Source: Stramenopiles sp. TOSAG23-6 (lineage: Eukaryota > Sar). From it: 43,508 bases of DNA. The notes beneath the pieces were generated by a model. The model was not told the DNA's origin. It was given only the letters and a program-made list of their open reading frames with translations, and ran no database searches. Below are positions 1-43,508 of this stretch, one piece after another. The stretch lies in the NCBI GenBank assembly GCA_900128565.1, contig LT635931.1, forward strand, positions 1 through 43,508. Reading direction: 5' to 3'. The position numbers and the translations under genes were made by a program. Numbering within the stretch: position 1 is the stretch's first letter; every line of letters starts with the position of its first letter.

Positions 1-81
1 AAAAATATTTCAAAAAAAAATCGTTAGGTACAAAATTTCGTACGAAAAATAAATTAAAAATTGAAAAAAAATAAAACATAC
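1..81 (-). repeat. Introner-like GT-AT intron, partial (kinase gene)
   Basis: On the minus strand the exon ends ...GTAT and the intron starts GTATGTTTTA. The TTCGTACGAA palindrome and TACCTAACGA follow. The 3' end lies outside the window. Same family as the other 15 introns. Confidence 0.8.
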
Positions 82-1177
82 ATACTTGGAGTGACCCTGT
101 TTTGTTTTGTGCTTTATTAAGTACATCATCAACTTTAACCTCATTATTAGTCGATGTGGGAGGGTGTGGGGGTAATTTCGACAAATTGTTATGAAATTTC
201 ACAACAGTAGTTTGCGGGACGCCGGCAAAACATTTTTCATATGTTTTATCAAGAAGATATGCCGCACATTCTCGAACAGCGCCTTTGCCAATACCAATAC
301 CACTCTTCATTCCCATACCTAAATTATCATAATCAATAGTTTTCATATCTAAATCATTTAAATCGTGAAAGAATAAATCACTCATTGAATTACTTGTAAA
401 TGTTGATTTCATATCTGTATATTTTTTAGATTTACTTGATGTAGTGGCATATATCGATTCTTCATTTGATATTTCATTTCGAGAATCCCGAGGTAAATAT
501 GATTTTGGGTTATTTTTAGCATATGGTTCTTCATCAGTTGGCTTAAAGACTGCAGCGATGCGACGCCCAGGACTACGCATAAAATATGCACCACCAGAAC
601 ATATTGAGTCTACAGGCGTCGGCGATAATCCAGATTGAAGACCAGCGATAACACTTGATATAAGAGAATTTCCATAATTGAAATACTTTTCTTCAAATAT
701 TTCTTTAGAAGAATTTTTACTTTCTTGGACATGTTTCCGAGGCGTCTCTTCATAATTATCCCAAAATTCAGAGTACGGTGACAATGTTCTCTCATTGTGA
801 AGTCTCTTTGGTGATGGGTGAATGACTTCAACGGAGCTGTTTGTATGTAAATTCAAACGATGACGCTTTTGCCCCATCCCTCCCCCATGTATTGCTTGAT
901 TATCTTTATTAACTCTATAACAGAATATTCTATCAGAAAAAGTAGCTGTCGTATACTCTGTCTTCACTCTGCTATCTGGGTGACTAGGCGTATATTTTTC
1001 ACCTATTTTTTGTTTATTTTGATCTTCTTCAGAGCTTTTAGTTTCTCCTTTTGTTCCCGATTTGTCAGCACACTCCACACACCCGCTTGTATCATCAGTC
1101 ATATTGGCTATTGTTAATTTTGCTAGACGTTGTTGTAATTGCTTAGCCTGGTCTACATGGGATATCGTAATAGACAT
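82..1177 (-). CDS. PI3/PI4-kinase-family lipid kinase (PI4K type II/gamma-like), first exon, partial
   Basis: Reading down from the ATG at 1177, an open frame of 365 codons continues to the intron donor at 81. The C-terminal half shows the start of a phosphatidylinositol 3/4-kinase catalytic domain: GGAYFM, then the ATP-binding lysine region VAVFKP-like (AAVFKPTDEEPYAKNNP), then GIGKGAVRECAAYLLDK and FAGVPQTTVVKF, in the order seen in plant-type PI4K-gamma and type II PI4-kinases. The first 180 residues are polar and low-complexity. Lipid phosphorylation at membranes is inferred from the family. The catalytic and activation loops must lie beyond position 1, so activity cannot be judged. The start is the first ATG in frame, about 420 bp from the retrotransposon edge. 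A PI3/4-kinase-like protein kinase is an alternative. Confidence 0.8.
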
Positions 1178-1594
1178 TTTCTCCACAAATCCACAACACC
1201 GTACTTGTAATTTGTAACTGGCAAGTTCTTCGTCGCAAAGTCAGTCGACCCCTGCCAATTTCTTTCGAAAGAATTAGTATCAAACTAAAGCTGAGAGAAT
1301 TATTCGTACAAAAACAACACGAAGATGAACACCAAAATGCGCTTCCGCGCTAGCCGGCAAGGCAAACCGGTATTTGTTACTGACAAAACAAAAGTAAGTT
1401 CACAGTTGTAATATCTTTCGAAATGTCAAAAAAGACCGACCGGTTGTTCATTCCCGATATTTTCTTTTTCTTACGTATCAAAATTTGGTACAGATCCTTG
1501 GAAAGAACTCTCTTCAAATTTTGGTACAGATCCTTGAGGCCACTTGAGGTGACCGGGTAACTTCTCTGTGGTGTAACCGTTTTCAAAGAACTTT
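1178..1594. other. Intergenic region upstream of the kinase gene
   Basis: No gene is seen. It holds the presumed kinase promoter. A roughly 20-bp direct repeat (TTGGTACAGATCCTTG with flanks) occurs at about 1479-1500 and 1514-1536. The last five bases (ACTTT) are the left target duplication of the retrotransposon. Confidence 0.6.
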
Positions 1595-1969
1595 TAGTAA
1601 AATACCGTTAGATTTCTTACGAAATCTGATATTAAATTGGATTGAAATTGGTTAAAAGAGACTAGTAACCGATTAGTAAAAATAGGATCAGTAAATAATT
1701 ACCTCTGGTAGAGTGTACGTATTATGGCCAGTAATACGTATAGTTAACCAGAGTGAACAAAATAAATTGAACTTGTAATCAAATATAGATCTTTTATTGA
1801 AAACTAAAGTTAAGAGACAAAGCGCACAACAGAAACAGAAACAGCAAGACAAAGAGACAAATAAAGAGCACGAGGTACCCTAAGGTAACTGGCTTTAACT
1901 CTGACTCTAATTGCTTACTTCTTGCGCAAACCTGTCTTAAATATCACAAAATACCGTTGTATTTTGCCT
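1595..1969 (-). repeat. 3' LTR of the copia element
   Basis: 375 bp, apparently identical to 10784-11158. On the minus strand it begins AGGCAA and ends TTACTA, not TG...CA. AAAATACCGTT occurs near both ends. Confidence 0.93.
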
Positions 1970-1976
1970 CTCCTCC
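1970..1976 (-). promoter_or_regulatory. Polypurine tract of the copia element
   Basis: The minus strand reads GTGGAGGAG directly against the 3' LTR start (AGGCAA), the expected place for the plus-strand primer of reverse transcription. Confidence 0.7.
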
Positions 1977-2734
1977 ACATGTTGTAAAACATGCTCTCTG
2001 GATTTCTAAAGATTAAATGATGATTAACAAAACAATTCTTGAATATAAATAAATTAAAACGAAAATATTTTTCTACAATTTTTGATATGAGAAATTTTGA
2101 AGCAGGATTGTTCCCTCATTCGAAAGTGAGGGAACATTCCTGTTCCAATTGGTAAATCAGAGATTCTGAATTTCTGAAATTCTGATTCATCAAAATTCTT
2201 CGATAACACGAAATCATTCCCAATCATAAATCGCGCGCGAATGATGGATCCATCAAAACATCAAAGACATTTAAAGGTCTTCGATCATGAATACTATTCA
2301 TTCGCTAAATTCTTCGTTTTGTAAAGTGAAACTTCTCGGAATATGATATGTCAGCCGCTAAGCACAGTACCACGTGGGAAAGCCACGAAAGGTACTGCGC
2401 TTATGCTACATTCTTTCCTCAACGTCGTAACACTATGGATAAACTCAGGATTCGTTTGGTCAACCAGAATATCGCTATGACAAAGAGACTTGGTCAAACA
2501 TCTTTTAGGTCCCATTCCTTAGGGAATCGGTCCACTGTTAAAAGTGGAAGTGAGTCGAGTTCGAGATTGATCTAACCTCATACGGGTACGTGCTTCCCAT
2601 GGCACAATGACAACGACAGTGACCCTGTTCGGAGTCCCTGTATTGGGGTTAGTACACGATCAAGATACTTCACTGGCCTAAATTGATTGTATAACCAATA
2701 ATCTGTCTGCGATTATGGATAACATACCCCGCGC

Positions 2735-10483: not shown

Positions 10484-10761
10484 GATTGGCTAAATGGTTA
10501 TGAAGGAGTAAATATTATAGGAAAAACTGTCTCTCAGGAGTTCCTGGTATACAGCTGATGAGAATAGACTCCTAAAAATGGAGATTATCCTCTTAGAACA
10601 AAACTTTGGTGTTTTCGTCAAAACACAAAGTTAATGCCGAAATCCGTGAAAGTAAAGTCACGGAAACGATACGTTTAAAAACGACAGTTACAGAAAATTA
10701 ACAGACCAGTAAGCTAGAATGTTAAGATTAGTCTACTATTATCAATGCACAATGAATGAAA

Positions 10762-10783
10762 GGGTAGAGACCGACTGTTAATC
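10762..10783 (-). promoter_or_regulatory. Probable primer-binding site matching a tRNA-Asn anticodon arm
   Basis: The RNA-sense (minus) strand directly after the 5' LTR reads GATTAACAGTCGG. Its complement, CCGACTGTTAATC, is the anticodon arm of tRNA-Asn(GUU), with loop CTGTTAA and anticodon GTT. Priming from an internal tRNA fragment is known for Drosophila copia (initiator tRNA-Met). The match beyond the anticodon arm is poor, so the primer identity is inferred. Confidence 0.5.
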
Positions 10784-11158
10784 TAGTAAAATACCGTTAG
10801 ATTTCTTACGAAATCTGATATTAAATTGGATTGAAATTGGTTAAAAGAGACTAGTAACCGATTAGTAAAAATAGGATCAGTAAATAATTACCTCTGGTAG
10901 AGTGTACGTATTATGGCCAGTAATACGTATAGTTAACCAGAGTGAACAAAATAAATTGAACTTGTAATCAAATATAGATCTTTTATTGAAAACTAAAGTT
11001 AAGAGACAAAGCGCACAACAGAAACAGAAACAGCAAGACAAAGAGACAAATAAAGAGCACGAGGTACCCTAAGGTAACTGGCTTTAACTCTGACTCTAAT
11101 TGCTTACTTCTTGCGCAAACCTGTCTTAAATATCACAAAATACCGTTGTATTTTGCCT
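10784..11158 (-). repeat. 5' LTR of the copia element
   Basis: 375 bp, apparently identical to 1595-1969. Transcription of the element should start within it on the minus strand. The right copy of the ACTTT target duplication follows at 11159-11163. Confidence 0.93.
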
Positions 11159-11232: not shown

Positions 11233-13715
11233 ATGGATAGTAATGGCGGCGTGGATGAAGAAGGAGACGTAGTCGATACAATTGAAACAAACCCAGAAAT
11301 TTCTGAAGAAGAAAGTGTACAGAATAAAAATAGTAAGGAAAGGATTGATAGTGAGGTTGATTTCATTGTTAACAATATGGAGTTCGAAGATGCAACGCAG
11401 GAGTTTGACGATACAAATGAGAAAGAAAAAATCCTTTCAGGTATTCGTGATGGTATATTCAAAGCCATTGAGGAATTAAATATGTCGGATCTTGTACAAT
11501 TAACAAATCAAGCCAGAGAGCGAGGAGATGAGGTAATTAATATGGGAGATGAAATTGGTGATACTTCACTTCACCGCGCCGCTGGTTCTGGTTCACTTGA
11601 TATGATTTGTTTTCTTGTATCAGCTGGAGCGGATATGGGTGCCACAAATGCAAATGATGACACACCGCTTCATTATGCTTGCATGTTTGTTCCAGCTGAA
11701 GACGATCAAATGGTTGAACATTTTATGATGGTTGAAGCAATGTTCGCTGCTGGCGCAGCTTCTTATTGGGATTCTAAAAACAAAGAAGGCGAGACTCCAC
11801 AGTCATATGCCACAGACGCATTCCCTCCGAATCTTTATGAGAAGTTAGTCGCCAAGTCTCAAGAACATGCATTTATTGTTACGTATCATGAAGATTGTAT
11901 GCTTAAAGCAAAAAAAAATGTATGTTTTTTTTTTTTCAAATTCGATTTTTTTTTCGTACGAAATTTTGTACCTAACGACTTTTTTTTGAAATATTTTTCC
12001 AAAATACATGGCTTCTCTGGAAGGAAAACTAAAAGATAATTCAGCTTTGCCTTTACCAACAACTGAAAGCAATGCGAAGTTTAATAAGCCAAGGACAATA
12101 GGTCGGTTGCAGTGGCTAAGACGTCAATTAAAGAATTTATATATTACACCAGCTGCATGTATGTTTTATTTTTTTTCAATTTCGAATTTACTTTTCATAC
12201 GAAAATTTGTACCTAACGATATTTTTTTTGAAATATTTTTCCAAAGTACATTATTCAGCGCAATGGATGCAAATAAAGATGGTATGATTTCTTTGCCAGA
12301 GTTTGTGTCTGGCTTGGCAGAGGTTGGAATTTGTGTCAATGATTTCCAGTCTAAGCAACTCTTTATGTACATTTTCATTTTCAATTTCAATTTTTGTTTC
12401 TTCATAGTTTTTTATTTTTCGTGGATAATTTTGTACCGAACAAAAAAAGAAATTTTATCTAAAAATTGTTTTCGCTAATGTTTTGTAACTCAAAAAAAAA
12501 TATTCTTCACAATAAAGTATGATCGACCCGGATCGTGACTCAAAGATTAGTTGGACTGAACTTGAATCCTGTTTATCTCAAAATGTTGAAGAAGATGGTG
12601 CTCGAGAGTTGTTGGCAGATGAATTAGAGAAGAAACAAATTGCAGGTGTAGATGTTGAAGAGGAAGAATTAAAGACAAATTATATGGAAATGCTACATTT
12701 AAATGAAAAGGACCCAGAAGAGGTTGAAGAGAGGCGCGATATACAAAGATCTTCAGCTGTATTTCAAGAGATAAAAGCAGCTATTGAGCAAAACAAAACT
12801 CTTTTTGGTCGACAACTTCGAAGTGGAAAAGATCTTTTTGAGAGTATGGATCAAGATGGTGATGGGCATCTTACATATGAAGAGTTTACGAATGGTTTGA
12901 AACAAATGAATCTAGGTTTGAGCGATGAACAAATAAAGGAAGTAATTAATCAACTTGATGTAGACAAAGATGGTGAAATTGAATTTGAAGAGTTGTTTGA
13001 GGTACTTCAAATAGATGAAGATGATTTTAATCCTGTAAAACAAACTGAAAAACGTATTTTGGAAGTAAAAAAAAAAGTTCAAGAACAGGAGAAAGCCATC
13101 ACTCATTTGTGTGGATCTTTTGCGTTCAACAAAAGTGCGCGCGTAATAGCTTCACATATCGAGAAAAGAAAGAAATTAGAAATTCGAATGACTCGACAGA
13201 GAGCCCGGATTCGTCGTAAGTTTGAAAATCGACGTAGTCAAAGACGCAGTAAATGGTCACAGGTGTTGTCTCGATCTCCATATGGCGTTGATCAACATGC
13301 GGAACATAAGATTATAATGAATGCAAATAAAGAAAGAAATCGGTTAGAAGCAAGATTAAAAAAACGCCGCGAAAAAAAGCGTCTGAAATGTCTCGGTAAA
13401 CTCATTGTTGAAACATTGACAAATGCCGACCAATTAGGCGAAGTTCGAAGGGAAAGTCGCGAATTAGCTTTAGAAGAATCTCGTTTAAAGGCAATGGTAG
13501 ACCTAGAAAAAGCTCGAAGGAGAGGAATGAATAGTAAATACTACCGAGAAAAATTAAGTAGACAAGAAATTCGAGCTCGCATTCAAAGTAAAGAAGCTCA
13601 AAATAACGCTGATAGTCCAGAGATGTTGCTGAAGAATATTAACTTTAACCCCAGTGAAGAGAAGTTATCTGATGAAAATCCTATTACATTCATCGAAAGA
13701 AGTAATGAAGAATAG
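11233..13715 (+). CDS. Ankyrin-repeat and four-EF-hand calcium-binding protein
   Basis: Four exons (11233-11919, 12010-12158, 12252-12366, 12521-13715) encode about 714 residues. Exon 1 carries an acidic N-terminus and two to three ankyrin repeats (GDTSLHRAAGSGSLDMICFL; DDTPLHYAC). Splicing of introns 2 and 3 rebuilds EF-hand loops DANKDGMISLPEF and DPDRDSKISWTEL; two more canonical loops follow (DQDGDGHLTYEEF, DVDKDGEIEFEEL). The last 200 residues are a highly basic helical tail. A Ca2+-responsive adaptor is inferred. The exon 1/exon 2 join is one base out of frame with the GT-AT rule; an A8 run at 11911-11918 could be one base too long. The retrotransposon ends about 70 bp upstream and may affect expression. 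Confidence 0.85.
11920..12009 (+). repeat. Introner-like GT-AT intron 1 of the ankyrin/EF-hand gene
   Basis: AAT|GTATG ... AATACAT|GGC, 90 bp. It contains TTCGTACGAA and TACCTAACGA. Removal by the family rule leaves the frame one base off; see the A8 run directly before it. It has no in-frame stop when read through. Confidence 0.75.
12159..12251 (+). repeat. Introner-like GT-AT intron 2 of the ankyrin/EF-hand gene
   Basis: CAT|GTATG ... AGTACAT|TAT, 93 bp, with TACCTAACGA. GT-AT removal joins GCA-T to TA-TTC and rebuilds the helix before the DANKDG EF-hand loop. Using the nearby AG gives a wrong frame. Confidence 0.85.
12367..12520 (+). repeat. Introner-like GT-AT intron 3 of the ankyrin/EF-hand gene
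   Basis: TAT|GTACA ... AAAGTAT|GAT, 154 bp, the longest and most diverged member (branch-like site ACCGAAC). GT-AT gives ...LFMIDPDRD. An AG three bases earlier (12516-12517) would also keep the frame and add one Ile. Confidence 0.75.
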
Positions 13716-13813: not shown

Positions 13814-15072
13814 TTATCCATACCATCCATTGAATGTATTATTTTGAACAATACTGTTTTGCTGCCTTTTGATATTATATGAAGGGTCATCAGTTTTCAG
13901 TTCATATCGGCATAGTGGACAGGTATTTGTTTTATTTAACCATTTCATAATACAACCCGAATGATATATGTGATAGCATGGTAGTCTAGTACATTCTTTA
14001 TCTATAAAATCATCTTGACAAATGTTTTGTACATAAATATTTTTTTTTGTACAATTTTTTTTGTTAAGTACAAAATTTTCATAGAAAAAAAATGTAAGGT
14101 AAAAAACAAATTTAATTTTGAAAAACGTACATTGGACACATCACTTTTTCTTCTTTATTTCGTGTTATGTTGACTGAAATATTAATACTAGTATTAATAT
14201 TAGTTGTAGTACTATTTTTAGGTGCATTTATATCAATTAGGTCTACAGACTCTACACATTTTGTTTCTTGGCATGCTGCGACATTAGGGTTAGGGTTTGA
14301 CAGTAATTTTTGAAGTCTTTTTGAAGCATCTTTTTGAATCATTAAAGCAGGTATTGATGTAGAGGCATTATTTGAATTAGTCATTATATAAGGCCAAACA
14401 GTTTGATTTTGTCCAACAACAACACCAATCGCACCATGTATTGTGAAAAAATATTTTTTTGTAGTAAAATGTTTTTGTTAGGTACAAATTTTGGTACGAA
14501 AAAAAAAAAGTAAAAAAAAATTGAAAACGTACATAACTTTGTAAACGTATAATTTTTTCAACAAATGAACAACCCCCCCTTTCAACGAAAGCTATTACAC
14601 CTCTAATGGTAGAACTATTGATTAATTCAGTTGCAGCATTGAAAGGATTCGCCATAACTATTTTGGGGTATTGTGTTTTACCCAGTGGCCAATCAGGACC
14701 AAACCGAGCAGCTAAACAAGAAATTTCACCAACGATACCTGAAACACTCAGAGATAGCTGTTGCAACCACGGAGATTTTTTATCAACTATAGACCGTTCT
14801 AAAGATGCACACACAGATTTGGACGCTGCGGGTCGGCTGCTAAAGTGATGAAACTCCTCTGTAAAATTCCGGAAAAAATCTAAATCATCTACTGAAGCTG
14901 TTGCTGTACTGTTGGAGACTTCACTATCTCCAGGAAGGACCACCGACAAGTCAGCTCCACAAATTTCACACACTGGGTCACTTGCATAATATCGAACAGA
15001 CTCAAGACAATCTCCACACCATCGAAAATTTGAATTTCTTCTTGCGGGTGGTAAAGGAGGATTTGGTATCAT
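13814..15072 (-). CDS. PA-domain RING-H2 E3 ubiquitin ligase
   Basis: Three exons (14533-15072, 14131-14435, 13814-14021) give 350 residues. The N-terminus has a zinc-ribbon-like pair (CGDC ... CEIC), similar in place to RNF126-type ligases. A protease-associated domain spans roughly 110-215 (FVERGGCSFVEK ... GAIGVVVGQ), its core rebuilt by removing intron 1. Removing intron 2 rebuilds the first RING pair CPIC; the rest is CTRLPCYHIYHSGC and CPLC, a complete C-terminal RING-H2. No transmembrane helix is obvious, unlike classical PA-TM-RING proteins. The start is the ATG at 15072, because upstream in-frame codons have no ATG. Ubiquitin transfer is inferred from the RING. Confidence 0.85.
14022..14130 (-). 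repeat. Introner-like GT-AT intron 2 of the PA-RING gene
   Basis: AAT|GTACG ... AAAACAT|TTG, 109 bp, branch-like ACTTAAC. GT-AT removal rebuilds CPIC of the RING finger exactly, so the metal-binding motif checks the boundary. Confidence 0.9.
14436..14532 (-). repeat. Introner-like GT-AT intron 1 of the PA-RING gene
   Basis: TAT|GTACG ... AATACAT|GGT, 97 bp, with a TCGTACCAAAA variant core and TACCTAAC. GT-AT removal gives LQSYGAIGVVVG, the normal PA-domain core. Confidence 0.9.
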
Positions 15073-15311: not shown

Positions 15312-16188
15312 TTATTTACTAGATGGTCCACCACAGAGAGCCATTACATTAAAATGAAGATTTTTAGGATCTCTCGACATAAAATCGTTTCGGATTATTT
15401 TCGCAGCATCTGAAAGTATGAATTTTGGAAAAATATTTGAAATGTTTTTTCGTTAGGTACAAAATTTCGTACGAAAAAATTCTTCGAATTTAAAAAAAAA
15501 AAAAAACATACATGTCACTGCATTTACCATGAGGAACTGGAAAATCCTGACATCCATCAAATTCTACAAGTATACCATTAATACAGACAAATACAATAAA
15601 ATGAGCATCCACTCTTTCATCTCTGTCAGGGGCTGCTGTTTGAGAAAGTGATTCGTCAGAGGCACTTTCTTCACTTACTTCATGAATTGGTTTTGCATCA
15701 GCCAACAATTGTCCTTTCTGTGAAGGCGACTCCTTCTGGTGCGAATCAATGAAATCATGTAATATTCCTGGAGCTAATTCGAAATTTGGATTATATAAAT
15801 GGTTATTAGAGAGTGCATGTACCATACCAATTGTACCACATGCATTTCCAAAACAAGACAGTTGTTTAACGAAGAAAGTTTTGCTTCCTAAAGTTTTATC
15901 AATGCTTGAGTTATTGCGATACTCAGATCGTCGAGGGCCACTAATATTCTTTGAAGGATACAATAAACACACAGCAACACAAGGTTTGGGCACCATACAG
16001 AGTAGCTCAGGATCTAGTCCGAAAACGTCAACCCACTCGAATGAAGATTGCATACCCATGCGAGTACAAAAGCTGTTTACTAAATCTGGATTGCTTTCAA
16101 GAGGAAGCCATCTCGGATTAGTGCTCTTCATATCATTATTTGAAGATTTGGCTGATGCAACTGCAATATTATCTTTATCACTCTCCAT
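15312..16188 (-). CDS. Ubiquitin C-terminal hydrolase, UCH (peptidase C12) family
   Basis: Two exons (15512-16188, 15312-15417), 260 residues, close to UCH-L3 length. Residues about 27-75 have WLPLESNP, FEWVDVFGLD and ELLCMVP. The catalytic Cys is in GNACGTIGMVHAL, the His in DAHFIVFV and the Asp in EFDG. Intron removal gives the C-terminal KIIRNDFMSRDPKNLHFNVMAL typical of the family. Between the oxyanion-hole Gln (VKQ) and the catalytic Cys there are two residues more than in human UCH-L1/L3. The crossover-loop region (about 160-200) is acidic and Ser-rich. It removes small adducts from ubiquitin C-termini (family knowledge). It is divergent from the GMP synthase gene. Confidence 0.93.
15418..15511 (-). 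repeat. Introner-like GT-AT intron of the UCH gene
   Basis: CAT|GTATG ... AATTCAT|ACT, 94 bp, with TTCGTACGAA and TACCTAACGA. GT-AT gives SDILSDAAKII in frame. The first AG (ACTTTCAG, 8 bp further on) gives a frameshift. Confidence 0.9.
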
Positions 16189-16354: not shown

Positions 16355-18677
16355 ATGTCATGCAAAGAGGGAATTGAAAAACTTGTAATTCTTGACGCCG
16401 GTGCACAGTATGCCAAGGTAATTGATCGACGTGTTCGCGAACTTGCTGTGCATTCCACAATCTTGCCTCTGGAAACTCCAGCTGACAAGTTGAAAGCTGA
16501 TGGATACAAAGCAATTATTATTTCTGGTGGACCAGAGAGCGTGTACGCAGAAAATGCCCCTAAATACGACCCTGGGCTGTTTGAATTGGGTATACCAATA
16601 TTCGGTATATGTTATGGAATGCAATTATTAAATAAGGTCCATGGAGGTTCTGTATTAAAAAAAAGTGAACGGGAAGATGGTGTTTTCAAAATACACACCA
16701 CTGGAAAATCTTTACTATTTGATAGTTTAGATGTAACTCAGACAGTATTGCTTACGCATGGTGACTCGGTATCAATGGTTGCTCCAGGTTTTCGTTGTGT
16801 GGGGAAATCGTCCAGCGGGATTGTGTCTGCTATAGACTCTTTTGAAAAAAAAATGTATGGCGTTCAATTTCACCCGGAAGTAGATTTGACTGTTCATGGC
16901 AAAGAAATGTTTTCTAATTTTTTATTCAAAGTTGCTGGATTTTCAGGTAATTTCACAATGGTTTCTAGAAAAGATGCAGCAATAAAATTAATCAGAGAAA
17001 CTGTAGGTGATGCCTCTGTTCTAACTCTTGTGAGTGGAGGTGTTGATTCTACAGTTTGTACCGCTTTGCTTCGTGAAGCTTTACCACACGAAAAAATATT
17101 TGCATTACATTTAGATTCTGGATTTATGCGGAAAAATGAAAGTTCTAATGTAAAACTGGCATTGGAAGCAATAGGCGTTAATTTAAAGGTGGTTGATGCT
17201 ACTGAAACATTTGCTAATGCTACAACTGAAATTCGAGGAAAGAAAACGAAACGTCTCTGTGAAACCATGTACGTTTTCAAAATTTCAAAATCAAATTTTT
17301 TTTTTTTCGTACCAAAATTTGTACCTAACAAAAAAAATCAAATTTTTGATTTTTTTTCACAATACATTGACCCGGAAGCAAAACGTAAAATTATTGGTGA
17401 TACTTTTATGACAATTAGTGATGTGGAAGCACGAAGATTTGGTTTAGACCCTAAAAAATGTTTTCTAGCACAAGGAACATTACGTCCAGACTTAATCGAA
17501 TCTGCGTCGAAAATTGCTTCTGGTTCTGGAAATGCACATTGCATTAAAACGCATCACAATGACACACAGTTGGTACGTGCTCTTCGCGAGCAAGGTAGAA
17601 TTATTGAGCCACTAAAAGATTATCATAAGGATGAGGTAAGAGCTTTGGGAATGGATTTAGGTTTATCTGAGTCTTTAGTATGGCGTCAACCTTTCCCTGG
17701 CCCTGTACGTTTTTCGTAATGAATTTCAAGTATATGTTTTTGTTTTTATACAAAATTTTATACCTAACAAAAAAAATGTACTAAAAAAAAAATATATTTT
17801 TTCATAGAACATGGACTAGCTATTAGAATAATTTGTGCCGATAAACCCTTCCTTCCTGCTATTCAAGACGATACCAATGGTCCTATAAAGATTGCAAAAA
17901 AGTTGCAGAAAGTTGTGGAAACTGTCTGTTCTCGTTTTAGCACAAGTCAAACATTTACTGGTAATAATGTATATTTTATTTTTTTCAATTTCGAATTTCG
18001 AATTTATTTTTTTTCGTACGAAATTTTATACCTAACAAATTTTATGAAAAAAAATATTTTTCACAATACATACAGAAAATAAAATAAAGAGACAAAAGAC
18101 ATTGCCATCATCTGTTACCGATGTTCAAGCGATTCTATTACCTTGTAGATCTGTTGGGGTTCAAGGAGATTGTCGTTCCTATAAGTCACTTTGTGCTCTC
18201 AGTTGGTCTGGTAAGAGTTCAATTAATTGGAAACTTTTACTTGAAATTGCAAGAGAAATTCCTAAATTGATACACCATGTAAACCGAGTAGTTTTTCTAT
18301 TTGGAGATTCAATGATGAATGGGGTGTCTTCAACAATAACTCCAACACGTCTGGAAGAACCTGTTATTAATATGCTTCGTGAGGCAGATGCAATCGTGAA
18401 TGAGTTGCTATTGAAGCACAAACTGACAAGAAAATTAAGTCAAGTGCCAGTCATTTTATTTCCAGCGGATTTTGGGCTCCCAGGTAAAAGAAGTATTGCC
18501 ATTCGAACATTTATTACTAGAGATTTTATGACTGGGTTGCCAGCGCAGCCAGGAAAAGACATTCAGATTGCTATTATTGAAGAAATGGCTCGTCGAATAT
18601 TGACTGAGGTTGAAGGCATTGGTCGTGTAACCTATGATCTTACTTCAAAACCTCCCGCAACAACAGAGTGGGAATAA
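16355..18677 (+). CDS. guaA: GMP synthase (glutamine-hydrolysing)
   Basis: Four exons (16355-17268, 17368-17704, 17813-17968, 18072-18677) join in frame to 670 residues, close to human GMPS and longer than the roughly 525-residue bacterial enzymes. The N-terminal class I glutamine amidotransferase has GGPESVY, the nucleophile Cys in GICYGMQLL and the His/Glu in VQFHPEVD. The ATP-pyrophosphatase domain has the SGGVDST P-loop, and WRQPFPGPGLAIRII is rebuilt by removing intron 2. It converts XMP, ATP and glutamine to GMP in the cytosol. The start ATG is just before SCKEGIEKLVILDAGAQYAKVIDR. Gene symbol by bacterial homology (GMPS in animals). Confidence 0.96.
17269..17367 (+). repeat. Introner-like GT-AT intron 1 of GMP synthase
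   Basis: CAT|GTACG ... AATACAT|TGA, 99 bp, with TACCTAAC. GT-AT joins ...RLCET to IDPEAKRKIIG as in other GMP synthases. Read through, it adds 33 codons without a stop. Confidence 0.9.
17705..17812 (+). repeat. Introner-like GT-AT intron 2 of GMP synthase
   Basis: CCT|GTACG ... AGAACAT|GGA, 108 bp, with TACCTAAC. The invariant FPGPGLAIR fixes both boundaries: the exon ends CCT and resumes GGA. The exon lacks the usual AT, so AT-AC borders are excluded. Confidence 0.92.
17969..18071 (+). repeat. Introner-like GT-AT intron 3 of GMP synthase
   Basis: AAT|GTATA ... AATACAT|ACA, 103 bp, with TTCGTACGAA and TACCTAAC. GT-AT keeps the frame (TGNN-TENK). Confidence 0.88.
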
Positions 18678-19502: not shown

Positions 19503-20374
19503 TTACTTTTTGATCTTACGGAGGTAAAAAGCAAGTTCAGGTCCTTCAAGAATGTATCCATCAGCACGTCCAGACTGTCCTGGACGAGATGAGATGCAAG
19601 CCAAAAGGCGACCATTGTTGAATTGATCAGCAAGGTTTTCATCAATTTCACGAGTTTTGCAATTCTTTGCTTGACGTCTAAGAACCTTGTTAGATTTTTT
19701 CTTGTCGGCTTCATCCTCGCCCTGTAGTGTAAAATGAGTATAGTAGTGGTATTGATGGGGCCGACACCATCAATTTATCAATGAGTAAAACGAATCAAAA
19801 AACAAAAAGTAATAGTATTGAGGTGAAAAAGAGGGGGGGGATAATTAGTAGAACCAAGATAAGTGCTACAGTCGACTTTCAAGGGTTTGACTTGAAATGG
19901 CTGTACACGTAAAATATCATGATGTAACAAAATGATATACTAAAGCTCTAATATACAATACATTGGATAATTAATACGTACATCTTTCTTCTTAAGTCCA
20001 GCCTTTTTGTTGAGCTCGATCCCGTAGTGGGTTTTGTACCAACTTCTGTAAGGTGCACTGTCAACTTGGACGATGCAGTTCTTTACAAGAGTCTTGGTAC
20101 GGACAAGCTCATTGTTAGAAGCATTGTAGACAACATTGAGAATACGAGCTTTACGGGTGCAGACTTCGGATCCCCAGGAAAAGTTACCGGTCTCAAGACG
20201 AAGAGCACGGAATTTCTTGTTTCCACCACGGGTGCGGACAGTGTGAACACGCTTAGCACCAATACGAGTATTAGCAGCTGGGCGTCCAAGCTCAAACTTC
20301 CTCTTCTTTACATGAATAACACGTTTACCACCAGTGTTACGGCGTTTGTGGCGTGAGTCGCGAGAGATACCCAT
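19503..20374 (-). CDS. RPS8: 40S ribosomal protein eS8
   Basis: Two exons (19982-20374, 19503-19721) encode 203 residues that align end to end with human RPS8: [64 protein letters not shown] and the terminal [27 protein letters not shown]. It is a structural protein of the small ribosomal subunit. Codons are more GC-rich than in most neighbours, as expected for high expression. It carries the only ordinary GT-AG intron in the window. It is divergent from the ubiquitin-eL40 gene. Confidence 0.97.
19722..19981 (-). other. Canonical GT-AG spliceosomal intron of eS8
   Basis: GAT|GTACGTATTAAT ... TTTACACTACAG|GGC, 260 bp. It lacks the palindrome, the TACCTAAC box and the ACAT end of the introner family. 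Confidence 0.9.
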
Positions 20375-21697: not shown

Positions 21698-22671
21698 ATG
21701 GAAGAAGACTTGGTTAGCCGGGATTTATTCAAAGTTGGAAAAAGTGCTATAGATTTATGTGCTTCCGTTGAACGTATTCAAAGAGGCCTTTTTCTTCCTT
21801 TCTGGAATCATGTCGCACGTGTTGTACTTCCTGTAAAAATTCGTGGTTTCCCCTCAAAATTTATTGCAGCTGAGCCAAACAATACAACAACTGGACATCC
21901 GGTGTATTTAATTGAGGGTTGTAGTCTAGTTGCAGTATTTTTATTGAAAGCTCGTGATCACCAGAGGCATTCACAATATACTTGTCCTATCGCTGGACCA
22001 ACTCAGCATGGATTTCGAGTGAAGTTTGATCCTGTCGGGGGGTTCTTGACATATCATAGTGATGATCCTCGTTTTGCAGAAAAACATATAGTCTTGTGTA
22101 TATTTCCACAAAATTATTGGCAAAGTGGAGACGTTGTATCTGAAATGCGTCGCTCTGGTATTAACTCCGCATCAAGTCCGAATTGGGGTACGTTTTCATC
22201 ATAAATTTATTTTTTTCATACCAAATCCAAAAAGGTTTTATACCTAACAAATTTCACTTTTTTGCAATATTTTCTCAAAACACATGTCCCATTCTAGATG
22301 ACTTTAGTGCTGTACAGGCGAGACTTCACCGTTTACAGGAGGAAGTTGTACCCTCTTTAAAATATTGGTTATTTCAACCTCATCAATTAACTCATGCTAT
22401 ACCTACACTTCTTACAAGCCGTATTCTTGTTGAAATTGAGAAAGCAGATGACTCAATTGCCCGTTCAGCCAATTGGGGCGTATTTAAAGCCATGGCGAAT
22501 AATTTTATAAAGGATTCTCTTAATTCTTCATCGCTGTCAGATAGTTCAGATAATGTTGAAAATTTTAATTCGAATGGTGATTCTAAACTTCCATCCCTTC
22601 AGAAAATCACAGGACACTACAATGCGATGTGTCAAAATATTTTTGAAGATTATAAAGAAAAATGCAAATAG
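21698..22671 (+). CDS. Protein of unknown function (291 aa)
   Basis: Two exons (21698-22187, 22286-22671). I do not recognise the family. The first 150 residues look globular, with an alternating hydrophobic pattern (VARVVLPVKIRGFP; PVYLIEGCSLVAVFLLKARD), Pro/Gly turns and no signal peptide. Residues 160-245 look helical (AVQARLHRLQEEVVPSLKYWLF), followed by a Ser/Asp/Asn-rich stretch and a short helical tail. NWG occurs at the splice junction and again at residue about 232. The upstream in-frame TTG is ignored in favour of the ATG at 21698. It is tail-to-tail with the TTL-like gene. Confidence 0.75.
22188..22285 (+). repeat. Introner-like intron of the unknown gene, with two possible 3' ends
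   Basis: GGG|GTACG ... AACACAT|GTC, 98 bp, with TACCTAAC. The exon side lacks the AT. An AG at 22296-22297 (CCCATTCTAG) would also stay in frame and drop four residues, so a GT-AG variant is possible here. Confidence 0.75.
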
Positions 22672-22894: not shown

Positions 22895-24933
22895 AGGATC
22901 CCAAAGAATTTCAAAACCTCTCAGAAAAGGAATATATTGTGAAAAAATATTTTGTTTTGGTTTACAAAAATTCATTAGGTACAAAATTTTCTATAAAAAA
23001 AATTAAAATTTCAAAATTGAAAACGTACACACCAGATCTGGACATTCCGCTTGACTGCTTCATTTCCGCTGTTTCAATTTCTTTCCTTAATAAATCGTCG
23101 TCATCAATTGTATTAAAAACATCTTCTAATCCCTCTATATTCTCTTTTGTTTCCGAGTGTTGAGGCAAAGCTTCAACAATTTCGTCATTTTTATCTGTTA
23201 ATCCGTCTATATTCTCTTTTGTTTCCGAGTGTTGAGGCCAAGCTTCAACAATTTCGTCACTTTTATTTCTCAGAGCAATGGTTTGGTCAACTGTTAGATA
23301 TTTTGCAGCTGCTCTTGCCGCCTTAATAGCTATCCCAATATTACCATTACTACTATTCTGCAAGATATCCGAATCAAGTATTGGAGCTATTGGATCTATA
23401 GCACAATGTACTAAGTCTTCAGTCATATTGGGCATCAAATCAGCTGCAACAGCTGGTGATGAATTTACTTCAATTAATGATACTTGAAAATCAGGTTCGG
23501 CACTTACCATGAGATCAAATCCAAATAAATGAAAACTGGAATAGGACACAAATTCAGCATTTTCCATCATATTTCTTGCTGCAAGTAGTGTATGCACTAC
23601 AATAGCCTTAATTTGAGGATATATTTTTGTATAAAAACTATTTGTTTTGCCATGTGTAGCAATCATCCAATTATCAAAATCAGCCCACCACATTTCGTTT
23701 GTAGGTTCATGTATTGTGAAGAAATATTTCAAAAAAAAAATTTTAATTTGTTAGGTACGAAATTTCGTACGAAAACAAAATTAAATTAGAAATTCATATA
23801 AAACGTACATATTTTCCATATTCTGGATGTTCCTTTGCAATACAGTGATTTGATAAATGTGTAAAACGATCGTTCAAGTTATCTAAGTTATATGGTGTAG
23901 CAGCCGTTCGAAGTACACCTTCACGATAGAGACAAATTCTATAATCGCTTGTCAATAAAACCCATGCATTGTAAAATATATTTAAGTCTGAAATCAGTTA
24001 GGTACAAAATTTCGTACGAAACCAAAAACAAAAAAAATGAAATTGAAATTGAAATGAAGACACACATGCTCTAATGTCAAACTTTCTATTACCAACAACA
24101 GTCAACGGTCGTTCTAAATATTTTTGAACAACAAATCGGTCTTTTAAACCTCGTTCTGTTGAAGCTCTTAATAAGGCTATGATTTCAGAAATATCACTGG
24201 ATAAAACAATGTAAAGTGAAAAATATGTCGCGAAAAAATCGTTAGGTACAGAATGTACTATGAAAAATATAAAAATACAAAAATAAAACTGAAATGATTA
24301 ATGATTAATGAAAATGTACATGTCATCACCACAACCGCCGGCGCTAGGTTTCACAATCCAAATATTCTTTTTATCACTATTCTGGGATTCTATATTGAAT
24401 CTATCGCGTAAGTCTGATAACTCCTTTTCATTTGGATGCTCAGAATTATAAACTATAGCAAAAGGCATTATTTTTGATATATCATACCCTTCATCAAGAC
24501 AATAATCACGAAGTGTTATCGTTTGTTGAGCTTTATCACAAATTGTACGCCAGCCACGGCAAAAATTGACAAGCATTTTGGATCCCCCGTCACCATTACG
24601 TGATCGGACACCGCCTAATACTTTAAAATCGAATCCTTTTCCACACCAACCACCAATTAAAAGATCCAGTCCGCCAATGCATTCTTTATCCTCCTCTTCA
24701 CGCCAACCACCACGATCACGAAGATAAATTGCAACACTGCGATAGATTGATATCGTATGTTTGTACCAGTAATAAGGCCTTAATGATAGCTTCTTATCTA
24801 CCATTGCGGTAAGTGTTTCAGATTTTTTTACTCTTTCGGCGGCCTGCTTCTCAGAAATAGCTAACATGTGAGCTTTCCAATAGGCCATTTCCTCCTCTGG
24901 AGTCGAAAAGGTTGCAGGAATCTCTTTGTCCAT
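22844..24933 (-). CDS. Tubulin-tyrosine-ligase-like (TTLL) protein
   Basis: Five exons (24320-24933, 24066-24208, 23809-23963, 23029-23708, 22844-22931) join in frame to 559 residues. TTL/ATP-grasp motifs in order: NIWIVKPSAGGCGDD, FVVQKYLERPLT with RKFDIRAWVLLTSD, YLYREG-like CLYREGVLRTA, LTNHCIAKEHPEYGKY-like segment, and VSLIEVNSSPA. TTLL enzymes add Tyr, Glu or Gly to tubulin or other proteins, usually in cilia and microtubules; which one applies here is not clear. Residues about 470-525 contain a tandem repeat (DEIVEAWPQHSETKENIDGL / DEIVEALPQHSETKENIEGL). The extreme C-terminal coding end is duplicated in the 3' UTR. Confidence 0.9.
22932..23028 (-). repeat. Introner-like GT-AT intron 4 of the TTLL gene
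   Basis: TGT|GTACG ... AATATAT|TCC, 97 bp, branch-like ACCTAAT. GT-AT joins SRSGV to PFLRGFEILWDP in frame. The exon lacks the usual AT. Confidence 0.85.
23709..23808 (-). repeat. Introner-like GT-AT intron 3 of the TTLL gene
   Basis: TAT|GTACG ... AATACAT|GAA, 100 bp, with TTCGTACGAA and TACCTAAC. In-frame join PEYGKY-EPTNEMWW. Confidence 0.88.
23964..24065 (-). repeat. Introner-like GT-AT intron 2 of the TTLL gene
   Basis: CAT|GTGTG ... AATGCAT|GGG, 102 bp, with TTCGTACGAA and TACCTAAC. GT-AT rebuilds FDIRAWVLLTSD, a conserved TTL motif. Confidence 0.9.
24209..24319 (-). repeat. Introner-like GT-AT intron 1 of the TTLL gene
   Basis: CAT|GTACA ... TTTACAT|TGT, 111 bp, with TACCTAACGA. GT-AT joins GGCGDD to IVLSSDISEI in frame. 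Confidence 0.87.
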
Positions 24934-38400: not shown

Positions 38401-41400
38401 TTTGTGTCGCTGAACTTTACCTCTTTGATATGCTTGTAACTTTGTGGCAGCTTTGTGCTTCTGTAGTGTCTTGCGGCGTTGAACTTTACCTCTTTGGTGT
38501 GCTTGTAACTTTGTGGCTGCATTGGCTTCTAATAAATGAAAGCAACATTTTCTCCACCACCGCTGAATAATTACTGTTGGGTTTCGTCCCCGAGAAAACG
38601 CCGTTACAGCCAATCGTCGTAATTCAACAAGATTCAGTGTTTGGAAAGTAATTTTCCTTGATTTCCCACTCGTTTTTGTAATCAAATTCAAAATATTTTT
38701 CCATTTCATCTTTGATAAATCATGATTATCTATTTTTGCTAGAAACATTCCAGGTCTGACTCCTTTGTTTTTATATATTTGGCGCAATCGCTTCACAATA
38801 ACACCTTGGCCATCACTATATGGGACTACAGCGAGACCTAAACTACCAGGATTTACCGTCACTGTAATTTCTTCTCTGGATTTGTTCACTGTATACCGAT
38901 TTGCATTCGTTGTATCATTATTTTCATCTTTTTGTTTTTCATCAAAGTCTTCATCAAAGTTGTTGATATATATATTGTTAATATACACCAAAAGAGTATT
39001 TCTAATAAACCGCTGAATAATTTTAGCTGCTTTGGCAGCACCTTGATCTAGTCCCATTGCTTCGAGTGTTGCTACTTGCATTGCTCTATCTGTCGGGTGG
39101 GATGAAAAATTTAGCTCTAATACATATGGCCATACTTTATGTAAACTTGCTTTTAAACCCCGTAGTATCTTGAGCACCGAGCGAAAGTTTTCTACAGAGA
39201 CATCATTGCCATTGATACTATTCAGATACATTCCTACTTCAACCCCATCAGCCTCAAGTTGTCCAGGAGAACCATCGGCCAATACAAACCCAGATATACG
39301 AACACCTACACCACCAAATCCACGTTGAAGTTGAATACCCAAGGGGGCTTCACTTGAAGTTATCGATACTTTAACATTCTTCTTTATGTGTTTTTCCCCA
39401 TCTGTACATAAAGTGTCTACATTACCCTCAACTGCACGCTCCCATACAAGTGTAACTTTTGCTTGATTATCCCCCAATTCCATTAATGGTAATAAACTTT
39501 GCATTGGTATTATAAGAGGTTTCTCACCAGAACTCCTTTCTTTTGGCAGTAAACAAGAAAATTCTGCGAGCATTCGTTGCTCAGTTTTGTTTGTTTTCTT
39601 ATTTACAACTTCATCAATTACACGCATTGTGAGTTCAGGATTCAGCAATGATCCAACCTTCAGCCAATGCGATTCAACAAATTCAAGTATGTCGCTTTTT
39701 GGTATTTTTTTGCTAACACATGATAGAGAACCACGTCCTGGGGTATTATTTGCAACTTTTGACAAACTCATTTTTTTGTTCCAATTTTGACCACGTTCGC
39801 CAACAGCTCCAAGAACAAAAGTTACAACATCAGAACCTTTCCTACGCTTTGTATTTGGCAGCCCTTTAATATTCATGATTAGCACACGTACTGACGTTGC
39901 AAGTTTTTGGGATGCGTTTCTTATTGATCTTTCGTAATCGTCAAAACTCTTATACCGCTTCATTCTATTATACCTGGTAAAGTTATCTTTCAAAGCTTTT
40001 TTCTCTCTAAATATCCGCTGCAATGTAGAAATTGCTCGATTTTGTCGACCTAAAGCAAATGCTTCCAAAGTAGCTAATTTCATTACCAATTCTGTTGGTC
40101 TGGTACAAAATGTAAGTTTTCTATGAAATTCTGTGTATCTTTGAAGAAATTTAGAAAGTTCGGAAAATTTCATATTCCCAACGTTAGCCTCAAAATCCCC
40201 AGTTTCATCGGTACCAGTCATATATGTGAGGTACGAACCAAGTGAACAACCCTGTCTTTCCAAAGGACCTGGTTTGCCATTTACAAGAACAAATGATGCA
40301 AGCCGCGCACCCAATCCCATAAAACCAGGCTGAAAGCGAACGCCCAGAGTCCCCGGATCAACTTTTAGAGTTAATGTACGTTCCCTTGGTTGATGGCTTT
40401 TTCTAATGGCAAGATTTGTAATACCATCTATTGTCACATTACGTTCCCACTCGAAAAATATAAGCCCAACTGTATTCATTTGTGAAGATATTAGAGGCAT
40501 CTGAATTGTCCCATCTGAACTGCGTTTATCTGGTATATCCATTGTTGCTTCACAAATTACATACCCAGACTTTACGTGCCTTACATCTACCAACTGTATT
40601 GTAAGCTCTGGGATTTTAATATTCGCCATGTTCAAATTAATGAGACCTTGGTTCCACACAGGTTTCTTCGACCACTTGATACCAGGCAATACTCCTACTC
40701 TAGAATACTGACTAATAGACTGCTCATTATTTCTTAATTCGGAAGCACTCTCTATTTTACTTTGCCACCTGTGGTCTTTTTCTCCAATTACTGCTCGTAA
40801 AACCAAGCTTTCAGATTTTCTCTCCCCTTTTTTAAACTTGGGAATTACAATTCCTGTAGCTTTTTTTATAGACAACATAAAATCACCACCAATCATAGAG
40901 GATAATAATGATACTCGACCACTCAGCAAGTCATCAGCACGCATACGAGCAAGTCTTTTGCGTAAAACACGTTTAATAAGATTACTTGCCGCATCCTCTC
41001 GTTTTTCTTGGAGGAATTTTAATGTACCTAATTGCATCGCCCGTTTACTAGGCCGGGTGCTAAATAAAAACGTACGCACTATCTGTGTTGAATCTTTCAA
41101 TATCTTTAAAACATCTGGGAATTCCATTGATGATATTTCTGTATCTCCATTAACTTTTAGCATATACATTCCCGGTAAAACTCCTTCAACTTCAAGTTTA
41201 CCTGGCTTTCCTTCTAATAAGAGAAATTGTGTAACCATAACACCCAAACCGGCAAATCCAGGGTCTAATCTACAACCCAAAGGTCCTGGTGGTACTGTGA
41301 CTTGAATCTTTCGAATTGGGGCAAATTTAGAAAGACTTGCTAAAGTTTTTTTTTTTGGCGAGGACACATGCAATCCAACAATCCTTTGCCATGATACTTT

Positions 41401-43508
41401 GACTTCACCTGTCCAATTTATATCTCCTACTCCTCGCCATCGAATATCAATAGATCCACCAGAGCTACGAGCATTTGCAACGCGCACTGTTGCTTCACAT
41501 TTTGTAATTTCATTACCATCTGTATCAATATCATATACACGCAATGAGACTTCTGGACGCCGCAATCGACTCAATGATAATTTCGCTGTTTCATTTGGCC
41601 ATGATGGTGACCAACTCTTTAGTATTTTAGATGTTTCTACCGCTTTGGAACATGGTAATGGTGTTGTAAACCCCTTTGTAGCTCGTGCCATTTTCTGTTC
41701 CCAGGGCTCGCCTTCTTCACCAGCAACAAAACGCACAAAAGTCATGCGATCATCCACATTATTAGGTCCATCAAGATTAGTTACTTCATTGATAGTCATA
41801 TGTATTGATGTCGTTTTTGATTGCTTCATTTGATTGCCACTTTCAACCTTTGTGATTATCGCATCTACTAAATTATCTGAACGAGTTTTGTTTAACATTG
41901 TTTGTTCACGCGAAGCAAATGCTCGTTTAAACATTTTGTATGCCTGTCGACGTCTTATGACATTCTGTATTATCGTTGCTGCATTTGTTTGAGAATTACC
42001 AAGTGATATGACAGAAATTGCATTTTTCAAAGCAATATCTGTGGGTCTACTAGAAAAAGTAATAATTCTACGCTGTTTTGCACTTGACGATACAATTCTT
42101 TTAATGTCTGAAAAAGGCAATTCATCAAGGCTATTTCCAGATATGAGCATAAATGAGTTTTCCTTTGAAAGTGTAGGGTCACATTTGATTGAAGTTATAT
42201 ACATCCCAGCTTCGACTCCTTGAGATTCTAATGGACCAGGCATTCCATTCGAATTAAGTGTAAATGAAGCAATTTTTGCCCCAATGCCACCAAAGCCTTG
42301 TTCCATTTCGCAAAATAAGGACCCAGGATTAACTTTAACAACTATTGTTCGTCGCCTTATGCGCCCTAATTCTTCAAGCGTTATTTTTTTATCTCCTTGA
42401 ATGAGAGGGCGTTCCCATGAAATTAGCAGCGAGCCAGCCATTTTACCTGCGAGCGTGGCCATGGGAATACTGACAATACCATTAGAAGTACGCGTATTTG
42501 CTACCTCGAGCACACCATGGCACAGAATCTTTTCTGATACATTATCAAATACATCTTCTACACCACGCTCAATTATACAAAAGGTAATTTCCGGATTAAC
42601 TAAACTATTAATAGTGATCCATTTGGAAGTACCCCATATTTGATTCGAAGCTTTTGGGCGAGTAGACCAAGATGCTTCATGAGTGTACATCGGAGAGTCT
42701 CTAATATGTGTGTTTTGTTTAGTTCCAAGTCTTTTATATTTAGTTTCCCAAGTTTCACCTATTTCTCCTGATCTTACTCTAATAAATATTTTACCCTTAG
42801 TTGACCTTTTTGGTGATGAAATCTCAACAGACTTCAAAGCAGTGATTTTTATATCTGAACCTAATACCATTGGTATGTGTGTTCTATTATCTCTACCACC
42901 GAGAGACACATCATGACTGTATTCTTTTGAATGCTGTTGTGCAAGCCATTTTCGTACCGATTTTTGCAGTATTTTACATGCGTTCTTGCGTCTATTTCCC
43001 TTCAAAATTTTCAACACTTCAACTTTTATAGCTGCTTCCGATGGTCGATTACTAAATGTTAGACACCTAGTTAATTTCTGTTTAACTTTGAGTATTAAAA
43101 TAACATCATCATACATGGCATCTCCAACATCGGTGTCATCAATATCTATGAGATACATGTATGGTGAAACAATATTTCAAAAAGTTGTTTTTTTTTGTTA
43201 AAATACAAAATTTTGTAGAAAACAAAATTTAGATGAAAATATCCATTGCAAAACGTACATGTTTGGAAGTATACCAGATTTTTCAAGTGGCCCTGGTCGA
43301 CCATCAACGAGTTTGAAATAAACAAGTCTTACACCAACTCCGCCAAACCCCGGAGCAAATGCAGCGCCAATTGGCCCAGGCTCGCAGACAACTTTAACTT
43401 TTTTACGATTTACCACTGATTTAATACGCGATTTTTGTGCTTGGCCCATCACCCGCTCCCAATGTATTTTAACAAGACCAGACTTTTGTTTTTGGTGCTG
43501 AGAGAGGA
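32485..43508 (-). CDS. Giant multidomain scaffold (C2-like/PDZ modules, IQ array, SH3, EF-hand), 5' end missing
   Basis: Exon 43259-43508 (open at the edge) joins exon 32485-43156; more than 3,630 residues are visible. The first third repeats a module: PDZ-like (PGFGGLGVRV...GMYL), a short IQ helix, then a C2-like domain ending in SWER. PDZ-like units lie near 43400-43050, 42355-42030, 41310-41030, 40380-40090, 39370-39070, 38870-38620 and 35935-35690. Seven tandem IQ motifs follow (38520-38038), then three SH3 domains (ALYDY-type, DGWWEGETP) near 38025-37865, 37690-37525 and 37415-37260, more IQ motifs, two copies of NPHVTPRG, EF-hand-like segments and a C-terminal coiled coil. It probably binds calmodulin and assembles membrane or cytoskeletal complexes. 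No known family has this order. Confidence 0.88.
38038..38520 (-). repeat. Coding minisatellite: seven 69-bp IQ-motif units
   Basis: Each unit encodes 23 residues of the type AATKLQAHQRGKVQRRKT. Units 1/3 (AHQRG..QRRKT) and 2/4 (AYQRG) alternate, so a 138-bp dimer was duplicated after the monomer. The last unit is the most diverged. Confidence 0.92.
43157..43258 (-). repeat. Introner-like GT-AT intron of the giant scaffold gene
   Basis: CAT|GTACG ... CATACAT|GTA, 102 bp, diverged core (branch-like ATTTTAAC). GT-AT rebuilds LPNMYLIDIDD, matching the GMYL motif of the other PDZ-like units. Confidence 0.85.

Follow-up and report, generated by a model that had tools for sequence, protein, structure and literature searches.

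Probable transposable introns in a likely MAST-3 stramenopile, with a terminal AT apparently derived from target-site duplication

Few features of spliceosomal introns are as constant as the AG that closes them at the 3′ end. The window analyzed here (contig C389, positions 1..43508; the whole stretch of 43,508 nt) raises the question of whether this feature can be dispensed with: an earlier note described in it 16 short, related introns that begin with GT and end with AT, and read them as an introner family with a new 3′ splice site. The answer reached below is that they are probably non-autonomous transposable introns resembling miniature inverted-repeat transposable elements (MITEs), which insert with a 2-bp target-site duplication and are spliced 2 nt past their own tail, leaving the target restored. 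On this view, AT at the intron end is apparently the downstream half of that duplication and not a new splice-site signal.

A nucleotide profile trained on 72 copies, all from outside the window, returned exactly 16 copies in the window (cut-off E ≤ 0.001), as the earlier note had counted; 20 Markov-resampled windows gave none at or above 14 bits (best 10.0). The branch-like motif TACCTAAC occurs 13 times in the window against 0.88 expected, one of these (32313) lying outside the profile matches. The further copies sought genome-wide were found as well: the exact core TTCGTACGAANNNNNNTACCTAAC is present 710 times in the assembly (369 + 341 on the two strands; 8.03 Mb in 408 contigs, partial) and the reversed pattern not once, and a 37-base 5′ stretch with up to 3 mismatches has 147 sites (83 + 64; control 0). 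These genome-wide counts are slightly inflated by the near-identical contig pairs C13/C14 and C386/C387, allelic or strain duplicates that carry the same copies at the same spacing. A search of Rfam with the window and eight loci gave no matches, and the exact core is absent from IMG/VR. For the tests that follow, 84 unique copies with both ends were gathered from the window and from 20 loci (L009–L028); as these loci were picked for holding cores, density is not readable from the sample. Ends were misplaced in 3 of the 84 and later fixed or dropped, leaving 81 copies of 82–163 nt (median 100). Identity to the nearest neighbor ranges from 0.60 to 0.95 (median 0.85), and the copies are spread over several protein families, so that similar intron sequence stands in many genes, as in introners. 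At L023 (~9466–9600, minus strand) and L028 (~4985–5100 and 5483–5580), two branch-motif cores lie close together, as if one introner had been inserted into, or duplicated within, another. A copy at L028 711–790 (minus strand) carries a telomere-like CCCTAACCCTAACCC within its 5′ arm.

The length removed was read from the joined reading frame, with cuts placed before GTAYG and 2 nt past the tail TAC or TAT and with 75 nt of flank on each side (78 of the 84 copies testable). Removal of the element plus 2 nt leaves the frame open in 69/78 copies, or 71/78 with two ends corrected, compared with 22–25/78 when the cuts are shifted by 1–2 nt and 14/78 in antisense. Where one frame alone is open (70 copies), the codon phases are evenly represented (24/24/22). 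With respect to direction, 82 copies divide into 58 that are open in sense alone, 15 open both ways, and nine open neither way, with no copy open in antisense alone; this dependence on direction argues for removal at the level of RNA rather than DNA. Cuts at AG restore the frame far less often: the first AG that follows the branch A by 10 nt or more gives an open frame in 33/73 copies, the first YAG in 22/60, and the nearest AG in 36/73. In the 18 copies that have an AG between the branch motif and the end, the frame is open at the element end in 16 and at that AG in seven. Insertion into coding sequence, in the sense direction and with the frame exactly restored, is introner behavior; with hundreds of copies, uniform codon phase, and the target-site duplication described below, it upholds the earlier note in placing these introns among the introners.

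Because frame alone fixes the removed length only to multiples of three, homologues are needed for the exact borders (carets mark junctions). The GMP synthase junctions FPGP^GLAIR and CET^IDPEAKRKIIGDTF align with homologues without a gap, as do the CHD-type junction DEM^GLGKT with a CHD1 chain, two junctions of a FANCJ/DDX11-like helicase with a FANCJ chain, and the CPSase junction GGPT^DTAFLF, where the duplication is CT/CT. In ATP synthase beta, the introner lies inside the F codon of WDKFDQQKRSKWTG, and the junction is gap-free against the 94%-identical protein P0121. Other borders are set by motif (CP^IC, DANKDG, and FDIRA^WVLL) in window genes that we take to encode a RING finger, an EF-hand protein, and a TTL-like protein. 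Of the motifs named in the earlier note, FPGPGLAIR, CPIC, DANKDG, and KFDIRAWVLL are all restored when the copies are cut as GT...AT. The boundary before SDAAKII stands in part: the exon is in frame, but the junction reads SD-IL-SDAAKII, and no homologue was aligned there. As a further correction, copy 17969–18071 also allows an in-frame GT-AG removal, apparently the one used in the deposited GMP synthase P0006. This protein, probably from the same species, is identical to the query at 431/434 aligned residues. It carries VQH inserted in PFPGP^GLAIR and is short of seven residues at introner 1 and of four at introner 3, as expected if borders had been forced to GT-AG. Of the 120 matches listed, 119 have an unbroken PFPGPGL, the exception being P0006 itself. 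At two of the introner junctions P0006 conflicts with conserved motifs, and at the remaining one it can be read either way. P0006 also starts late and skips stretches unrelated to introner junctions; it is a poor gene model altogether.

The tail found most often, TATTTTTCCAAAATAC, has AT after it in 536 of 601 places. The other 65 end in TT (16), AC (15), AG (12), AA (9), GT (7), CT (4), GG (1), and TG (1); with AG in 12 of 601, the acceptor of a U2-type GT-AG intron is lacking from nearly all main-tail copies. We fetched 52 of the 65 non-AT places together with a few from the earlier loci, counting repeated sequences once; flanks were often 35–60 nt, L048 was skipped for its short flank, and L077 was misparsed yet kept. 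In 23 of the 51 rows parsed (some of them misparsed), the dinucleotide upstream of the element equals that at its end, against a shuffled mean of 5.1 and a maximum of 13 in 20,000 shuffles; this is a target-site duplication of 2 bp, as in MITEs. A cleaned set of 42 rows leaves out L044, L047, L051, L053, L054, L056, L057, L062, L072, L075, L087, L090, and L092, in which the 5′ end is missing or unplaceable. Its 23 matches are TT (7), AC (5), CT (4), AA (3), GT (2), GG (1), and AG (1); 13 of the unmatched rows have AT upstream and a single change downstream, and the remaining six, including L077, fit neither pattern. Over these short flanks the frame is open at the predicted border in 42/42 rows (one misparsed), compared with 19–24/42 at shifts of 1–2 nt. 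When upstream bases are compared with intron-end bases across the 84 copies, matches are in excess at −1 (73, p = 0.018) and −2 (65, p = 0.0015) and not from −3 to −7.

The non-AT endings often repeat their targets and the frame is kept, and removal therefore seems independent of the two end bases. The excess of AT would mostly reflect a preference for AT targets, the element itself ending at TAC, and removal apparently takes place without a reading of the 3′ dinucleotide. Of the claim that GT-AT marks a new 3′ splice site, what survives is that AT is the commonest ending; as a splice-site signal it is disfavored by the non-AT copies, many of which close with a repeat of their target dinucleotide and which keep the frame just as well.

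Copies flanked by AT on both sides cannot fix the border, since the duplication yields the same mRNA for GT-AT, TG-CA, and AT-AC removal; copies whose duplications have diverged can. Among 43 such copies (26 + 17), six could be judged, by eye, and all six keep the upstream dinucleotide. The second copy in GMP synthase keeps P (CCT) and not H (CAT). At 22188 in the window, the joined frame is open with the upstream copy and closed with the downstream one. A TBC-domain gene keeps F, the residue aligned in TBC1D1 and TBC1D4 chains, rather than V. A myosin gene reads VEYTVDGF with the upstream copy (myosin I: VTYTVEGI) and has no open frame in either alternative. A site-1-protease-like peptide (a weak match, E 0.26) keeps I, where the solved chain has V, rather than K. 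Finally, a peptide DMLNH, presumably SET-like, keeps H rather than Q; a search of this peptide against PDB gave no SET match. Among these six, the intron ends in AG in the TBC, myosin, and SET-like cases and in AA in the site-1-protease-like case. Most other diverged copies have no homologue or yield the same residue from either copy. A kelch case (L015) that seemed to favor the upstream copy was dropped for its uncertain borders, and a WD40-like case (L065; S or A) does not decide between the copies. With the upstream dinucleotide retained, GTAYG would be the donor, and the acceptor border would follow TAC by two bases.

Splice-like signals are present in the element. At the 5′ end, G stands at +1 in 76/81 copies and T at +2 in 78/81, with GC, GA, or AT in a few. 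Copies with GC (L046, L061, and L028 4822), AT (L045, L059, and L082), or GA (L010 7728) in place of GT still have an open joined frame, and the 5′ end may also be tolerant. The GTAYGT of the introners resembles the GTACGT donor of an ordinary 260-nt intron in the window, in a gene that we take to encode ribosomal protein S8, and an HSP60-like gene has four GTAAGT donors, one of which was followed through to an AG acceptor. The branch-like TACCTAAC, which precedes a T-rich tract, lies 32–56 nt from the intron end (median 39); the motif itself was used to find copies. Position −3 is a pyrimidine (C or T) in 81/81 copies, as the end model favors. The first and last 25 nt can form a mean of 5.58 pairs, against 2.59 expected from Markov shuffles (78 copies); this pairing is not conserved, as positions +8 and −8 pair in 34/81 copies and fail to pair in 47/81, owing to a common C at −8. 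A conserved end-to-end hairpin was rejected on the loss of pairing at −8, a structural clamp is unsupported, and any terminal inverted repeats would consist only of a short GTA...TAC plus T and A runs. A Tc1-like TA duplication inside GTA...TAC was likewise rejected: it would delete codons, contrary to the GMP synthase, CHD, and ATP synthase beta alignments.

Under the proposed mechanism, the element would be GTAYG...TATTTTTCCAAAATAC or GTAYG...TTTTCACAATAY and, on inserting into a coding region, would duplicate 2 bp of its target, AT being the preferred target. The host spliceosome would define the intron from the donor-like GTAYGT, the internal branch-like TACCTAAC, and the T-rich tract, and removal of the RNA by the U2-type (major) spliceosome is likely. 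Exons would be ligated two nt past the element tail, so that the intron would comprise the element and the downstream copy of the duplication, and the original codon sequence would be restored whatever the target. For the choice of the 3′ cut without AG, the candidates are a Y-N-N rule and a reading of the A-rich tail. We put forward tentatively, at somewhat less than even chances, that the second step of splicing by the U2-type spliceosome of this stramenopile lineage proceeds without reading the 3′ dinucleotide, the tail (CAAAATAC or CACAATAY) setting the cut two bases downstream and any pair of bases being accepted there. Mobility would depend on a DNA-level enzyme supplied in trans, as the 2-bp duplication and the GTA...TAC end repeat suggest a DNA transposon.

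A host spliceosome with genuine GT-AT specificity, for which AT is the 3′ splice site, would account for the predominance of AT after the main tail and at the end of 67 of the 84 sampled copies, AT standing upstream in fewer (60/84). It is nonetheless unlikely, because copies ending in TT, AC, CT, GT, AA, AG, GG, or TG keep the frame, and 23 of the non-AT ends repeat the target. Removal of the RNA without a spliceosome, the ends being joined by pairing as proposed for euglenid non-conventional introns, would suit the variable border dinucleotide within a direct repeat and the end pairing above shuffled expectation; we consider it improbable in view of the strong donor- and branch-like motifs and of pairing that is not conserved, its excess fitting the GTA...TAC repeat with the T and A runs. 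Excision from DNA without splicing, as of ciliate internal eliminated sequences, would explain why the target is restored exactly whatever its sequence, which is typical of transposase-type excision. The lack of any copy open in antisense only, together with the branch- and donor-like motifs, leaves this explanation very little room.

Two further readings keep conventional borders. In favor of ordinary GT-AG introns, alike by common origin and with their true borders at nearby AGs, GMP synthase copies 2 and 3 have in-frame GT-AG borders with which P0006 agrees, and canonical introns do occur in this genome. The low rate of open frames at the first AG, first YAG, and nearest AG, the VQH that breaks a motif intact in the other listed matches, and the residues dropped at introner 1 render this highly improbable. 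Alternatively, an AT-AC intron could be cut before the upstream AT and after the ...TAC; copies with AT on both sides would give the same mRNA, and AT is upstream in 60/84. U12-type introns have the 5′ end ATATCCTT and a short branch-to-end distance. Here the 5′ end is unlike ATATCCTT, the branch-like motif stands 32–56 nt from the end, and diverged copies keep the upstream dinucleotide (P not H in GMP synthase, the copy at 22188, F not V in the TBC gene, and the closed frames of the myosin alternatives), so that AT-AC removal is hardly credible.

Several observations weigh against transposable introns that carry a target-site duplication and are spliced 2 nt past their tail. In the offset comparison, two positions outside the duplication, −8 (p = 0.002) and +3 (p = 0.003), match about as significantly as −2. 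The duplication is also asymmetric: a non-AT dinucleotide upstream is paired with AT downstream in 14/84 copies, and the reverse holds in seven (four after dropping three misplaced ends), and a 3′ AT may to some extent have been favored by selection or by biased mutation. In nine of 82 copies, no joined frame stays open over 75 + 75 nt, and only six of the 43 diverged copies could be judged, with the SET-like and site-1-protease-like identifications tentative or weak. DDE_Tnp_4 (PF13359), the only transposase family tried, was not found in the partial assembly, nor were U1 and U2 RNAs, for which the controls were uninformative. The family, its orientation, the duplication, the removed length, and, in the informative cases, the retention of the upstream copy can be read in the DNA; junctions were taken from genomic sequence alone, from which we infer splicing.

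Micromonas and Aureococcus introners are short repeated introns for which direct and terminal inverted repeats have been reported, and the introns described here are likewise short and repeated. Both genera are named in a study of Amoebophrya, whose introners are the closest kin of this family (Farhat et al., 2021; PMC7789003). As described there, the borders of the repeated Amoebophrya introners are non-canonical, direct repeats span the junction of exon and intron, and the spread is like that of transposable elements, all features shared by the present family, which also resides in a protist. They fall into families (252 and 1954) with inverted repeats of 8–20 nt and direct repeats of 3–5 nt, and show no clear border dinucleotide pattern. 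The present introns, in contrast, form one family with a 2-nt, mostly AT duplication, a nearly fixed GTAYG donor end, and TACCTAAC; it is mainly the 3′ border that is free, and an end-joining inverted repeat of 8–20 nt is lacking, pairing being broken at −8 in 47/81 copies, and a long hairpin is not conserved. The same source did not find U1 in Amoebophrya, and it was not found here either, in a search that was uninformative. In the portion consulted of Gozashti et al. (2022; PMC9860276), intron-making transposable elements, some with target-site duplications or terminal inverted repeats, derive splice sites partly from the duplication; insertion and splicing mostly leave the mRNA length unchanged, and borders are GY/AG with varied 5′ sites. 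A splice site is taken from the duplication here too, although the resulting 3′ end is mostly not AG; the term “GT-AT” is absent from the text of that paper. Non-canonical introns of euglenids and diplonemids, in what was seen of PMC12621601, have short direct repeats at variable borders, with a MITE origin proposed; secondary structures join the intron ends, the spliceosome is seemingly not involved, and an adapted diplonemid spliceosome is left open. Our family shares the short border repeats and variable letters but differs in that its donor and branch motifs are strong.

The host, a single-celled and probably marine protist, is likely to be a MAST-3 stramenopile, as judged only from the database label of P0006 (eukprot GSMAST32.ASY1.ANO1.1688.1). 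This label presumably denotes one of the published single-cell assemblies of MAST-3 (3A and 3F; Seeleuthner et al., 2018; PMC5778133); in the sections consulted of the MAST-3 genome literature, including that paper, “intron” and “splic” are nearly absent and introners go unmentioned, and a literature search for MAST-3 together with introner returned nothing. Such a family does not appear among the literature matches listed, as judged by title and start of abstract, in a search whose coverage lies outside bioRxiv and most subscription journals. While introners as such are already known, a family that takes its 3′ splice border from a target-site duplication, with AG not needed, would be new.

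The window copies are listed in Table 1. With 60 + 60 nt joined after a GT...AT cut, an open frame was obtained for 14 of the 15 complete copies, the 3′ end being hand-placed in three (12367, 14130, and 24065). The fifteenth (24319, minus strand) has no frame at its misplaced profile end; moving the end by eye to 24209 gives DDIVLSSDISEII. In copy 12367..12520, an AG reading 3 nt earlier is likewise in frame, as read by eye.

Table 1. Introner copies and a comparison intron in the window; E values are from the profile, and carets mark junctions.
Feature	Position	Strand	Details
Introner copy, cut by window edge	1..81	−	E 1.1e-11
Introner AT^GTATG..AATACAT^	11920..12009	+	E 8.1e-16; open over 60 + 60 nt, not over 75 + 75 nt
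Introner upstream of DANKDG EF-hand loop	12159..12251	+	E 3e-15; ITPAA^LFSAMDANKDG
Diverged introner, end AAAGTAT, hand-placed	12367..12520	+	Profile 12367–12490, E 7.2e-06; LF^MIDPDRDSKISW
Diverged introner in RING finger	14022..14130	−	E 5e-04; CP^ICQDDF
Introner	14436..14532	−	E 7.1e-12; frame open
Introner	15418..15511	−	E 3.8e-14; SD^ILSDAAKII; nearby TTTCAG would break frame (by eye)
GMP synthase introner 1	17269..17367	+	E 1.8e-10; CET^IDPEAKRKIIGDTF, junction gap-free against homologues
GMP synthase introner 2, diverged duplication CT/AT	17705..17812	+	E 5.2e-06; PFPGP^GLAIR; other copy gives PFPGH
GMP synthase introner 3	17969..18071	+	E 8.1e-11; in-frame GT-AG alternative; P0006 four residues short here
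Ordinary GT-AG intron, for comparison	19722..19981	−	260 nt; donor GTACGT, acceptor CACTACAG; joined frame open
Introner, diverged duplication GG/AT	22188..22285	+	E 4e-07; keeping downstream copy gives a stop
Introner, diverged duplication GT/AT	22932..23028	−	E 7.2e-10
Introner in TTL-like gene	23709..23808	−	E 3.7e-14
Introner in TTL-like gene, donor GTGTG, 3′ end hand-typed	23964..24065	−	Profile 23964–24053, E 3e-08; KFDIRA^WVLL
Introner in TTL-like gene, 3′ end by eye	24209..24319	−	Profile 24198–24319, E 2e-06; profile end not open
Diverged introner	43157..43258	−	E 1.9e-04; frame open

Elsewhere in the window, positions 1595–11157 hold a recent insertion resembling a long terminal repeat retrotransposon. 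Its pair of direct repeats, each of 374 bp, shows 0 differences; ACTTT apparently stands on both sides, and a 2584-codon open stretch lies on the minus strand. A 3563-codon open stretch (32488–43176, minus strand) meets the introner at 43157–43258, and a 69-bp (23-codon) tandem repeat of 5.8 copies at 38135–38530 encodes units that, by eye, look like IQ motifs.

If the proposed reading is true, the first-step signals of splicing, donor and branch, would be separated from the AG requirement in these introns, and their endings would provide a natural dinucleotide series for testing the needs of the second step. A likely stramenopile would join the dinoflagellate Amoebophrya as a host of non-canonical introners. 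In this genome, annotation that imposes GT-AG borders would misplace many junctions, as the GMP synthase suggests. For the element itself, a transposon that duplicates 2 bp would be freed from AG targets and could become a silent intron almost anywhere in genes.

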